Of a stretch of 64,000 bases of DNA, positions 1,093 through 16,071 are shown piece after piece. The notes below the pieces were generated by a model. That model saw nothing but the letters and a program-made list of their open reading frames with translations, searched no databases and was not told the origin of the DNA. Position 1 is the first letter of the stretch. Every line of letters begins with the position of its first letter. This stretch comes from an uncultured Lysobacter sp. (GTDB lineage Bacteria > Pseudomonadota > Gammaproteobacteria > Xanthomonadales > Xanthomonadaceae), in contig CAMLID010000008.1 in the NCBI GenBank assembly GCA_946480055.1, forward strand, positions 24,840 through 88,839, in the 5' to 3' direction. The position numbers were made by a program, and so were the translations under genes.

Positions 1093-2457
1093 TCAGCCGC
1101 CCAAGGCCACCCAGGCGCCGACCGCGACGACCGCCAAGGCGCCGGCGGCGGCGCCCACCAGGATCCGCTCCTGCCGTTGCGAACGCGCCAGCGCGTCGCC
1201 GTAAGGCATCGTGGTGTGCGCGATCATGGTGTACAGCGGCAGCCAGGTGCGCGGCAGCAGACGGTTCAAGGCCACGTCCAGGCGCTTGCGCGCGAGGAAC
1301 CAAGGCGACTGCACCTTCTGCCGCAGCTCGACGAAGTTGGCCTTGGACAATTCCGCCAGCGTATCGGTGTGCGGGCGCCGCGAGCGCTCGTAGTCGGCGA
1401 ACGCGGCCGCGCGGTCGCCGTTCTGGCGTGCCAGGGCCGCCATCAGCGCCGAGCAATCCTCGAACGCCGAGTTCATGCCCTGGCCGTAGAACGGATACAC
1501 CGCATGGCAAGCGTCGCCGACCAGCACCATCCAGTCCTCGCGGCTCCACGGCGCGGTGCGCGTGGTCACCAGACTGCCGACCGGATGCGCCATCCACTCC
1601 TCGACCAACTGCGGCAGCAGCGGCACCAGATCGGGGAAGTAGGTCGCGAACAGCGCGCGCACCTCGTCCTCGTTGCGCGTGGTGGCGAAGCTGTCCGGGC
1701 CTTCGAACGGCAGGAACAGGGTCAGCGTGTGCGAGCCGTCGCGGTTGGGGTGCGAGACGAACAAGCCGTGCGTGCGCGGCCATACGTGCAGCGCTTCGAG
1801 CTCGATCGCCGAGCTGCCGTCGGCGCGCGGCTTCAGGGTGAGCTCCTTGTAGCCCCATTCCAGGTATTCCTGGTGATAATCGGCGCGTTCGCCGCGCTGC
1901 ATTTCCTGGCGCGCCCGCGAGAACGCACCGTCGGCGCCGACCACCCAGTCCGGGCGCACCTTCAACGAGGCGCCGCCGGCTTCGAACTCCAGCTCGCGCG
2001 CGGCCTTGTCGATCGCGACCAGGCGATGGCCGAAATGCAGGCGCAGCTGCGGATAGCGCTCGGCACGGTCCAGCAGCAGGCGGTTGAGTTCGTTGCGGTC
2101 GATCGAGTGCAGCACTTCGCCGCGGTCCTTGCCGTAGGGCTGGAAGCGGGTGCTGCCGTCGGGCGCGTGGATCACGCGGCCGCGCATGGTCACCGACATC
2201 GGCATCACCGCGTCGATCAGACCGGCCTCGGTCAGCGCCTGGATGCCGCGCTTGGACAGGCCCAGGTTGATCGAACGGCCGCCCTCGGCGCCGCCCAGGC
2301 GAGGATCGGGCCGGCGCTCATAGACGTCGACGCCGTGGCCGAGTTCGGCCAGGCGCAGCGCCAGCAGCGAGCCGGCCAGGCCGCCGCCGACGATGGCCAC
2401 GCGCGAGCCCGCGGGCGCTGCGGTTTGCATATCGGTAGGCAGGTCAGCTGGCGTCAT
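1093..2457 (-). CDS. kmo: Kynurenine 3-monooxygenase (FAD-dependent)
   Basis: A group A flavin monooxygenase that hydroxylates L-kynurenine to 3-hydroxykynurenine with NADPH and O2. The FAD-binding GxGxxG lies in VAIVGGGLAGSL near the N-terminus, the second flavin motif is GDACHAVYPFYGQGMN in the C-terminal half, and family residues such as GRSINLGLSKRG are present. The last 20 or so residues are hydrophobic, as in other bacterial KMOs. The ATG at 2457 overlaps the stop of the upstream gene, implying coupling; GTG 2484 and ATG 2430 are alternatives. It is last in the NRPS gene row. It may serve NAD synthesis or tryptophan breakdown, or supply a kynurenine-derived unit; I see no tryptophan dioxygenase or kynureninase here. 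Confidence 0.93.
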   Translation of the reverse strand: MTPADLPTDMQTAAPAGSRVAIVGGGLAGSLLALRLAELGHGVDVYERRPDPRLGGAEGGRSINLGLSKRGIQALTEAGLIDAVMPMSVTMRGRVIHAPDGSTRFQPYGKDRGEVLHSIDRNELNRLLLDRAERYPQLRLHFGHRLVAIDKAARELEFEAGGASLKVRPDWVVGADGAFSRARQEMQRGERADYHQEYLEWGYKELTLKPRADGSSAIELEALHVWPRTHGLFVSHPNRDGSHTLTLFLPFEGPDSFATTRNEDEVRALFATYFPDLVPLLPQLVEEWMAHPVGSLVTTRTAPWSREDWMVLVGDACHAVYPFYGQGMNSAFEDCSALMAALARQNGDRAAAFADYERSRRPHTDTLAELSKANFVELRQKVQSPWFLARKRLDVALNRLLPRTWLPLYTMIAHTTMPYGDALARSQRQERILVGAAAGALAVVAVGAWVALGG

Positions 2458-3307
2458 CGACCACGGTTCCGGCGGTGCGGGCACGGCGCCCGCCTGCGGA
2501 CGCGCGCGCGGCGGTGCGCGGCATCGCGCTCAGGCGCGGCGATTCGATCAGGCTGGCGCCCAGGCGCTGTTCCAGCTCGGCCTCGACCAGGGCTTCGATC
2601 GCCTGTTCGAAGTTGTTGCGGCGCAGGTTGGGGCCGAGCCGGCGCAGGTAGGAGCGCAGGTAAACCGCGCGCACTTCCGGCGAATCGATATCGCGACGCA
2701 GGAACGGCAGGTCGGATTCGACCATGTGCCGGATCGCCAGCATCGGGATCGGACTGCGCAGCGGGAAGAACTCGGGGTTGCGCAGGCCCGGGCTGCTGTT
2801 GTGGGCGTGGAACTCGCCCAGCATCAGGCCCAGCTCGACGAAGCCGCCTTTGTTCGCGGCCTGGATGCGGTCGATCATCGCCGCGCCGTCGCCGCCCAGG
2901 TTCGGAAACACGATCAGGATCGACTTGTTGACCGCGGCCGCGCCGGTGCGCGGTTCGATCTCCAGGAACAGATCGCGGTAATGACCGATCAGTTCGCCCA
3001 GGCGTTCCGGGTCGGGGTCGCGGTCGTCGATCTGGGTCAGCCAGATCGTGTCCAGGCCCAGCGCCAGCGGCGTGAACGGACACACCGGGCCGGTGCGCCC
3101 CAAGTCTGGATGCGGACGCGCGAGGAACTCGCGCACCCAGCTCACCGTGGTCGCCAGCGGCGAGTCCGGGTGCTGGTTGCGCTCGACATCGGACGCGCGC
3201 AGCAGTTGCCCGCGCGCCGCCGCGCCCGCGCTTTCGACGTGGGTGCGCGCCGCCATCAGCGCCGCATCCGGGTCGGGCATCTGGAAGGAATCGTTATCTG
3301 GGCTCAT
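2444..3307 (-). CDS. Uncharacterised protein of the NRPS gene row (possibly DUF6875-type)
   Basis: The product has 287 residues, no signal peptide and no membrane segment. I do not firmly recognise it; the segment with CPFTPLALGLDTIWLT and the later LPLRSPIPMLAIRHMVESDLPFL recalls proteins grouped as DUF6875, but I could not check this. A central stretch resembles a compact enzyme fold with SILIVFPNLGG and a GEFHAHNSSPGLRNPEFFPLRSP motif rich in polar residues. The C-terminal 40 residues are Arg/Ala-rich and probably disordered. The start at 3307 has AAGGAG at good spacing; an upstream in-frame extension is less likely. It lies between mbtH and kmo with an overlap into kmo, so it should be co-transcribed with the NRPS genes. 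Confidence 0.75.
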   Translation of the reverse strand: MSPDNDSFQMPDPDAALMAARTHVESAGAAARGQLLRASDVERNQHPDSPLATTVSWVREFLARPHPDLGRTGPVCPFTPLALGLDTIWLTQIDDRDPDPERLGELIGHYRDLFLEIEPRTGAAAVNKSILIVFPNLGGDGAAMIDRIQAANKGGFVELGLMLGEFHAHNSSPGLRNPEFFPLRSPIPMLAIRHMVESDLPFLRRDIDSPEVRAVYLRSYLRRLGPNLRRNNFEQAIEALVEAELEQRLGASLIESPRLSAMPRTAARASAGGRRARTAGTVVDDAS

Positions 3308-15700: not shown

Positions 15701-16071
15701 GCGGCGGCGATTTCGCGCCACGGCGCCTCGACGCGTTCGAGGATGTGCTGGAAGGGCTCGCCGTCGTGCGCGCGAAACACCGTGCGCAGGGTTTCGTGGC
15801 GATCCGCCAGCGATTGCACCGCGGCGCGCAGCGCGGCGCGGTCGAGCTCGCCGTCCAGCCACAGCCCGACCGGCAGGTTGTAGGCGGTCATGCCGGGCAT
15901 GAAACGGTCCAGCCACCACAAGCGCCGCTGGCCGAACGTCAGCGGTATGCGCTCGGGGCGCGGGCGGGCCTGAATACGGTTGTGTCCGCCGCGTTGACGC
16001 GCGGCCAACTGGCGCAGCAATTCACGTTTCGCAGGCGACAGCTCGGCCATGCGCTGATCGATGTCACTCAT
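12718..16071 (-). CDS. NRPS first module of the cluster (C-A-T)
   Basis: 1117 residues: condensation (about 42-480, HHIAIDGWS near 174), adenylation (about 497-985, AYVIFTSGSTGKPKG, YGPTETTV, NGKVDRR) and carrier (DLGGHSLL, Ser near 1038). The pocket reads D-I-L-Q-I-T-L-V-Y-K, close to the glycine code but with Thr at position 301 and Tyr at 331, so a small or modified residue is possible. The first gene begins with a condensation domain rather than an adenylation domain. Either this domain acylates the first residue with a fatty acid or other acyl donor, or an initiating module lies elsewhere. No acyl ligase or free carrier protein is visible nearby. ATG 16071 follows AAGGAAGG; it is the first gene of the operon. 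Confidence 0.94.
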   Translation of the reverse strand: MSDIDQRMAELSPAKRELLRQLAARQRGGHNRIQARPRPERIPLTFGQRRLWWLDRFMPGMTAYNLPVGLWLDGELDRAALRAAVQSLADRHETLRTVFRAHDGEPFQHILERVEAPWREIAAAGDDAEERCADALRIAREETARAFDLSRDAMLRAMLIETAPQQHLLLLVFHHIAIDGWSTTALLEELQRAYDILRAGGAPATEAPPLQIADIALWQQETLGGEGLQPQLDYWRQRLDGAITTLDLPADRPRPATQSFQGALYRSEVPVALYEKLERLARERQATLSMVFLAAYQALLSRYTGQDDITVGIGVAGRARVELEPVVGFFVNTLPLRTRIDGEPSFAQLLERVRDGVLSAMEHADAPLDRVLETLRLPRSVSHTPFAQALFFFQNYPEHSLAMSGLQLRQAHLIDLTPGSAQGDLSLFVNQHGERELMLEYSTDLFDRARIERLCGHLLRLLESAADAPDAPVSALELLTADEYAELARWNDTARELPAAATLAAQLQAQVERTPDAIALRFGTRELSYRELDRRGNALAHELRAAGVGAGDLVGLYVERTPEMLIGLIGILKAGGAYVPLDPTYPADRLAYMLEASAARVLVSQRALADQLPGAVATVIHADADAVLDERAERAPVGGAAPRDPAYVIFTSGSTGKPKGVEIQQRSAVNLLRSVARAPGLAGGEILCAISTLSFDIALLELVLPLTVGATVLLVDRDTARDGLRLRRLVDEARIDVMQATPATWRMLLEVGWSGKAGMKIISTGEALPRELADRLLPCGRELWNLYGPTETTVYSALCRVQAGAGPILVGTPVDNTQIHIVDRNMKLLPAGVPGELLIGGDGLASGYRGRVDLTAEKFIPDPFGAAPGGRLYRSGDLALWRRDGTIEVIGRIDHQIKLRGFRIELGEIESVLAQHPAVTQAVVHCREDRPGDKRLVAYVTAAGGAPATAALRDHLKAALPDYMVPSAFVVLERFPLTPNGKVDRRALPAPEAVNGNDSDDAYLAPVTHEEQALAAIWQQLLGARRIGRDDNFFDLGGHSLLATRLLARIEQQYGVELPLRTLFEAATLEQLAARVADACAQQPPDDLEALLASLEHLSDEEASARLAAALPGGGHG

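Follow-up and report, generated by a model that had tools for sequence, protein, structure and literature searches.

A conserved three-module nonribosomal peptide synthetase cluster with a terminal reductase in an uncultured Lysobacter, and a proposed supply of an oxidised tryptophan to its last module

This study concerns a seven-gene operon coding for nonribosomal peptide synthetases (NRPS), located in a stretch of 64,000 nucleotides from an uncultured Lysobacter sp. (contig CAMLID010000008.1, positions 24,840 to 88,839 of the forward strand), which we call the window. The genes were called from open reading frames and Pfam matches, and their start and stop codons were verified. The operon runs from position 16071 to 1093, on the minus strand throughout. 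NRPS1 (12718..16071, ATG at 16071, stop at 12718) and NRPS2 (9387..12725, ATG at 12725, stop at 9387) each encode, according to Pfam, a module composed of condensation, adenylation and thiolation domains (C-A-T), while NRPS3 (4885..9390, ATG at 9390, stop at 4885) encodes a third module which, according to Pfam and NCBIfam, ends with a thioester reductase domain (C-A-T-R). They are followed by an exporter of the major facilitator superfamily (MFS_1/MFS_3; 3557..4888, GTG start), which resembles TIGR00900 but scores below the NCBIfam cut-off, by an MbtH-like protein (3330..3539, ATG at 3539; Pfam), by a DUF6875 protein called P0005 (2444..3307, ATG at 3307; Pfam E 5.6e-59), and by P0006 (1093..2484, starting from GTG 2484 or ATG 2457), a monooxygenase that uses flavin adenine dinucleotide (FAD), resembles kynurenine monooxygenase (KMO) and belongs to a class specific to this cluster. 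An earlier note, made from the sequence alone, had described this series of genes, with an unknown protein after MbtH, as running in one direction with overlaps. The open reading frames and Pfam matches confirm the architecture and the common direction; the unknown protein matches DUF6875 (PF21780), and overlaps occur at four of the six junctions (NRPS1/NRPS2, NRPS2/NRPS3, NRPS3/MFS and DUF6875/KMO-like), the other two being gaps of 17 and 22 bases.

The LGG[HD]S motif of the T domain and the HHxxxD motif of the C domain are legible in all three modules. The nine-letter codes of the A domains, read by alignment at positions given by the GrsA numbering, are DILQITLVY in module 1, DILQLGLVW in module 2 and DAGDMGHVC in module 3. 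By the usual code tables, the code of module 2 is glycine-like, in agreement with the residue that the earlier note had assigned to it. The terminal reductase of that note is also found: the R domain matches NAD_binding_4 (Pfam, E 8e-63), NRPS3 scores 301.5 bits against the thioester reductase model TIGR01746 (cut-off 213.35), and it contains VHLVST and YNQSKW, the catalytic motifs of short-chain reductases. NRPS3 thus has the C-A-T-R organisation with thioester reductase of the myxochelin MxcG, aureusimine AusA and saframycin SfmC type. Against the MxcG model it scores 778.3 bits, over positions 4-1441 of 1442, but it does not reach the equivalog cut-offs of MxcG and AusA (2300 and 2500). The tripartite X-Gly-(aromatic)-R logic predicted for the cluster would resemble that of saframycin. 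We know of no counterpart, in the MxcG, AusA and SfmC systems, of DAGDMGHVC or of the pair formed by DUF6875 and the KMO-like protein. Subtyping of the C domains through their PDB matches did not separate starter from elongation types, and promoter and terminator scans gave no signal exceeding the shuffled expectation.

Positions 1-16500 of the window are present at 96% in the closest genome compared (G001). Among 247 genomes of the Lysobacter family, 19 contain DUF6875, in 20 copies, and the stretches around these 20 copies were fetched. The order NRPS1-NRPS2-NRPS3-MFS-DUF6875-KMO is kept in 14 of these loci; of the remaining six, L045, L046 and L047 have other NRPS, L044 is without NRPS3, and L035 and L048 are on short contigs. 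A second set, which overlaps the first, was obtained by scanning GTDB representatives with a DUF6875 alignment and consists of 51 named loci, of which the best matches are from Lysobacter, the genus that the earlier note had named. The same order, with a reductase-terminated NRPS3, is common to Lysobacter, Rugamonas, Janthinobacterium and Acidobacteriota. The KMO-like gene is present in 24 of the 51 named loci, including those of Rugamonas, Janthinobacterium, metagenome-assembled genomes (MAGs) of Acidobacteriota and Pseudoalteromonas luteoviolacea; the 27 loci that are devoid of it are two on short contigs (L057, L058), L074, which is the second cluster of one MAG, and 24 from cyanobacteria (20), Streptomyces (2), Frankia (1) and Nocardia (1). 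The MFS gene is found in all 20 family loci, and none was seen in L072 and L075. MbtH is not a fixed part of the cluster, since tblastn detects it in few loci (7 of the 20 family loci and 4 of the 51 named loci, the sets overlapping).

P0005 scores 199.6 bits against PF21780 (cut-off 24.5). A recent report describes the DUF6875 family as heme-binding and tryptophan-oxidising (cytochrome P422) (PMC13307353). ZigI, the DUF6875 protein of the zigralone cluster, belongs to the same Pfam family as P0005 (PMC13307353); ZigI is paired with a terpenoid pathway, whereas the DUF6875 protein of the window is paired with NRPS and a KMO-like flavoprotein. A published relative is proposed to act at C7 of tryptophan. 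Searches of PDB sequences with DUF6875 gave no meaningful match, and no relative was found in viral contigs. A Foldseek search of PDB folds returned nothing under 0.001; the top row, at 1.3e-3, is AglA, a heme arginine hydroxylase whose substrate is an arginine compound (PMC12866846). It belongs to the YqcI/YcgG family, characterised by a sandwich fold and a Cys-ligated heme. The family of AglA (PF08892) matches none of the 28 A1 members, and the alignment of DUF6875 with six PF08892 sequences by hhalign has a probability of 0.12%, hence no profile-profile support.

The last gene of the operon had been taken for a kynurenine monooxygenase, and the sequence family of this assignment holds: P0006 belongs to the FAD_binding_3 family, and in the PDB it matches KMOs best (306.9 bits). 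P0006 is not the housekeeping KMO. KMO matches occur in 232 of the 247 family genomes, and the copies found in the cluster form a class that is 70-98% identical to that of the window, the other copies being at most 46% identical among the matches listed. Two KMO matches are present in each cluster genome but G116, which has a single one (18 of 19); where the second is listed, for seven of them, it is 43-44% identical to the window copy. G001 also carries a normal KMO, 43% identical. We aligned 44 rows of the cluster class (31 distinct) and 12 housekeeping KMOs to the enzyme from Pseudomonas fluorescens (PfKMO), in which R84, Y98, N369 and Y404 bind the carboxylate and L213, I224, L226, F238 and M373 line the ring (PMC6376250). 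The cluster class has the carboxylate-binding residues of kynurenine 3-monooxygenase: all 44 rows show N369 and Y404, and R84 and Y98 are present in each of the 43 rows that extend over these positions. The ring pocket is different: L213 and F238 are conserved, but the class-wide changes I224V, L226H and M373L are seen in all 44 rows and in none of the 12 housekeeping KMOs, which all have I, L and M. We did not use the H320Y change as evidence, because position 320 varies among true KMOs (three of them have His, Tyr or Phe there; PMC8199213). Since the cluster proteins form a separate class with a changed ring pocket, the name kynurenine monooxygenase is probably a misannotation. In Lysobacter-family genomes they are usually the second copy beside another KMO.

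Across loci, module 1 reads DI[LFTS]QITLVY, with one varying position. The codes of module 2 follow DILQ[LF]G[LVM][VI]W, and that of module 3 is DAGDMGHVC wherever it was read. This last code is associated with the DUF6875 and KMO-like genes. It is found at the same locus in 21 of the 24 named loci that have the KMO-like gene, and it lies elsewhere in two cases, on a different contig of the genome for L056 and further along the same contig for L075. The 24 cyanobacterial and actinobacterial loci show no DAGDMGHVC among the A domains read, the actinobacterial loci having yielded no A domain. Within the family, using the A domain of module 3 as a query (6382..7839, minus strand), we observed that DUF6875, the cluster-type KMO (at least 70% identical) and module-3-type A domains (at least 62% identical) coincide in the same 19 of the 247 genomes. 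The family contains 20 such A domains (62-98% identity, the next best being at 47% among the matches listed), all of which read DAGDMGHVC (19 were fetched, the 20th is that of L047), and the 11 A domains fetched from genomes devoid of DUF6875, each the best match of its genome, have other codes.

Twenty genomes behind named loci were also searched, across phyla, with the A domain of module 3 and the KMO-like protein. Ten of them combine the KMO-like class with DAGDMGHVC; eight (six cyanobacteria and two Streptomyces) lack any KMO match at 1e-60, and in these the best-matching A domain has another code. The A domain most similar to module 3 reads DPW[AT]TGCID in five of the six cyanobacterial genomes and has the coordinates of a module beside DUF6875, which suggests that DAGDMGHVC and the cyanobacterial code may both read relatives of one DUF6875 product. 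The cyanobacterial loci differ from the window in that DUF6875 (at about 10001-10690 in L077-L091) lies beside NRPS modules, many of which read DPW[AGT]TGCID, and no KMO-like gene is present.

The coincidence in 19 genomes is not independent evidence, because these genes usually travel as one cluster; since the sets are partly a single inherited cluster, the weight of the argument rests on the exceptions. Three loci (L045, L046 and L047, from G242, G191 and G190) contain larger NRPSs which, in the stretch read, have in common with the window only the MFS gene, DUF6875 and one DAGDMGHVC module. The KMO-like gene is present in two of them, and the third is in G190, whose other cluster has one. 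In these three loci the DAGDMGHVC module lies between modules that read DMENMG-type codes or DAEGVGSVD, and DLFNNALTY or DLYNNALTY. In P. luteoviolacea, DUF6875 and the KMO-like gene are next to an unrelated NRPS, whose start resembles, by eye, a lipopeptide synthetase; the 60 kb read contain one DAGDMGHVC module, whose A domain is 47% identical to that of module 3 of the window. At this locus (L075), a frame ahead of DUF6875 (8846-9829, plus strand) resembles by eye a TauD-type dioxygenase, the product of which may act on the same peptide. Last, NRPS3 is absent from the cluster of the MAG SH_71_25 (G090, L056), where it would be expected after NRPS2 and before MFS. A different contig of this genome encodes a C-A-T-R-like protein that carries DAGDMGHVC and is 44% identical to NRPS3 overall and 66% in its A domain. 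NRPS3 is likewise missing between NRPS2 and MFS in L057, from the MAG G445.

We consider it rather probable that this conserved NRPS of three modules releases its product reductively and that its last module loads an aromatic amino acid purpose-made by the DUF6875 protein and the KMO-like enzyme. Precursor supply is the simplest reading of this enzyme pair, and the KMO-like gene of the cluster appears to be a repurposed copy with a part in the synthesis of a custom, probably oxidised tryptophan unit. The pathway that we infer would begin with the oxidation of L-tryptophan by the DUF6875 protein acting as a heme enzyme, and 7-hydroxytryptophan would fit the published relatives. The KMO-like flavoprotein, with its clamp for the alpha-amino acid kept and its ring pocket reshaped, would then oxidise this product again. 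The carbon that KMO hydroxylates is the equivalent of indole C7; because this site matches the position proposed for the relative of DUF6875, we guess that the second hydroxyl would be adjacent or para to the first, and the best guess for the product is 6,7- or 4,7-dihydroxytryptophan. Module 3, through DAGDMGHVC, would activate this modified tryptophan, while module 1 would contribute the N-terminal residue and module 2 glycine. That the first module begins with a C domain points to an N-acyl cap or to some other donor upstream. The R domain would release the chain as an aldehyde or an alcohol, possibly followed by cyclisation, and the MFS protein would export the product. A bolder version, which we put forward tentatively and regard as doubtful, is that the heme enzyme and the repurposed KMO make an indole catechol or a quinone-forming amino acid, read by DAGDMGHVC as a portable code and released as a reactive indole aldehyde able to self-condense, much as in the saframycin logic but with tryptophan.

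Several observations weigh against this proposal. In the MAG G445, in which DUF6875 is at a contig end, no DAGDMGHVC module was found in the 2.3-Mb assembly, where the best A domain reads otherwise, and no gene of the KMO-like class either, the KMO match there being 45% identical. In the MAG G446 (L072), the enzyme pair is present near a contig end and no module-3-type A domain is found (the best is 36% identical and has another code). In the stretch read, the second cluster of G190 is devoid of a KMO-like gene. The codes come from the best-ranked A domains, so that DAGDMGHVC could occur elsewhere. The tree obtained with FastTree separates the cluster class from housekeeping KMOs with a weak support of 0.60. 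Heme binding by the DUF6875 protein of the window is predicted from the family report, and the fold match with AglA comes without sequence support. We found no paper that mentions the code strings in the open-access literature searched.

The main alternative is that P0006 is a true kynurenine 3-monooxygenase and that module 3 loads 3-hydroxykynurenine, DUF6875 supplying kynurenine by cleavage of the indole or acting later. Kynurenine does occur as an NRPS residue in daptomycin, and both the best PDB matches of the protein and its conserved carboxylate-binding residues are those of KMOs. We nevertheless find this scenario unlikely: the substitutions at positions 224, 226 and 373 are invariably present in the cluster class and absent from housekeeping KMOs, nearly all family cluster genomes (18 of 19) hold a second KMO match, and the seven operon genes include neither a formamidase nor a tryptophan 2,3-dioxygenase, although the host could share these.

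Two other explanations do not involve a dedicated precursor. The product could be an ordinary acyl-X-Gly-Y peptide aldehyde that inhibits proteases, in which Y is a common amino acid and the DUF6875 and KMO-like enzymes tailor the peptide after assembly. The C-A-T-R architecture with intact R motifs and the MFS exporter are consistent with such a compound, but the enzyme pair goes with one specific A-domain code even where the assembly lines are unrelated, a pattern that precursor supply explains better than the tailoring of different peptides would, and the residues by which PfKMO holds the carboxylate of a free amino acid are retained in the KMO-like class. We consider this explanation quite improbable, and the assignment to protease inhibitors, guessed from the presence of an R domain only, is not supported. 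Considering that KMO is widespread in primary metabolism, with matches in most family genomes, the KMO-like and DUF6875 genes could also be housekeeping genes of tryptophan catabolism that lie next to the NRPS by chance. We rejected this idea, whose probability we consider very small: the cluster KMO is a copy distinct from the others and is found in the same 19 genomes as DUF6875, it is the sole KMO match at 1e-60 in 8 of the 10 genomes from outside Lysobacter that have both this class and DAGDMGHVC (Rugamonas, Janthinobacterium, Acidobacteriota and Pseudoalteromonas), and the gene order is conserved across genera.

Regarding the flanks of the operon, none of the six minus-strand frames upstream of it has a Pfam match, while, among ten frames scanned, four on the plus strand belong by Pfam to the NTP-transferase, methyltransferase, glycosyltransferase and HAD families, the other six matching nothing. 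These frames (NTP-transferase, methyltransferase, GT2 and HAD; 17452-24197, plus strand) resemble a sugar or capsule gene set. The upstream genes were considered as parts of the cluster and not counted, the Pfam matches there being on the plus strand only. On the other side, a gene for a SpoU-type methylase (498-1034) is convergent with the operon.

The open-access literature searched gave no paper that links this cluster to a product or describes such a product from Lysobacter, with MIBiG, antiSMASH and most subscription journals outside the scope of the search; a search on 7-hydroxytryptophan and NRPS returned nothing useful among the best 20 matches. NRPSs with reductive release, DUF6875 and KMO are each known, and the coupling of all three seems to be new. 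If the proposed pathway is true, it would give a function to a cluster-specific class of proteins otherwise read as kynurenine monooxygenases, and it would connect peptide assembly with a heme family reported only recently. It would also provide a simple rule for genome mining, according to which the combination of DUF6875, a KMO-like gene and a DAGDMGHVC module would point, in cultured Lysobacter, Rugamonas and Janthinobacterium, to a family of peptides still to be characterised.

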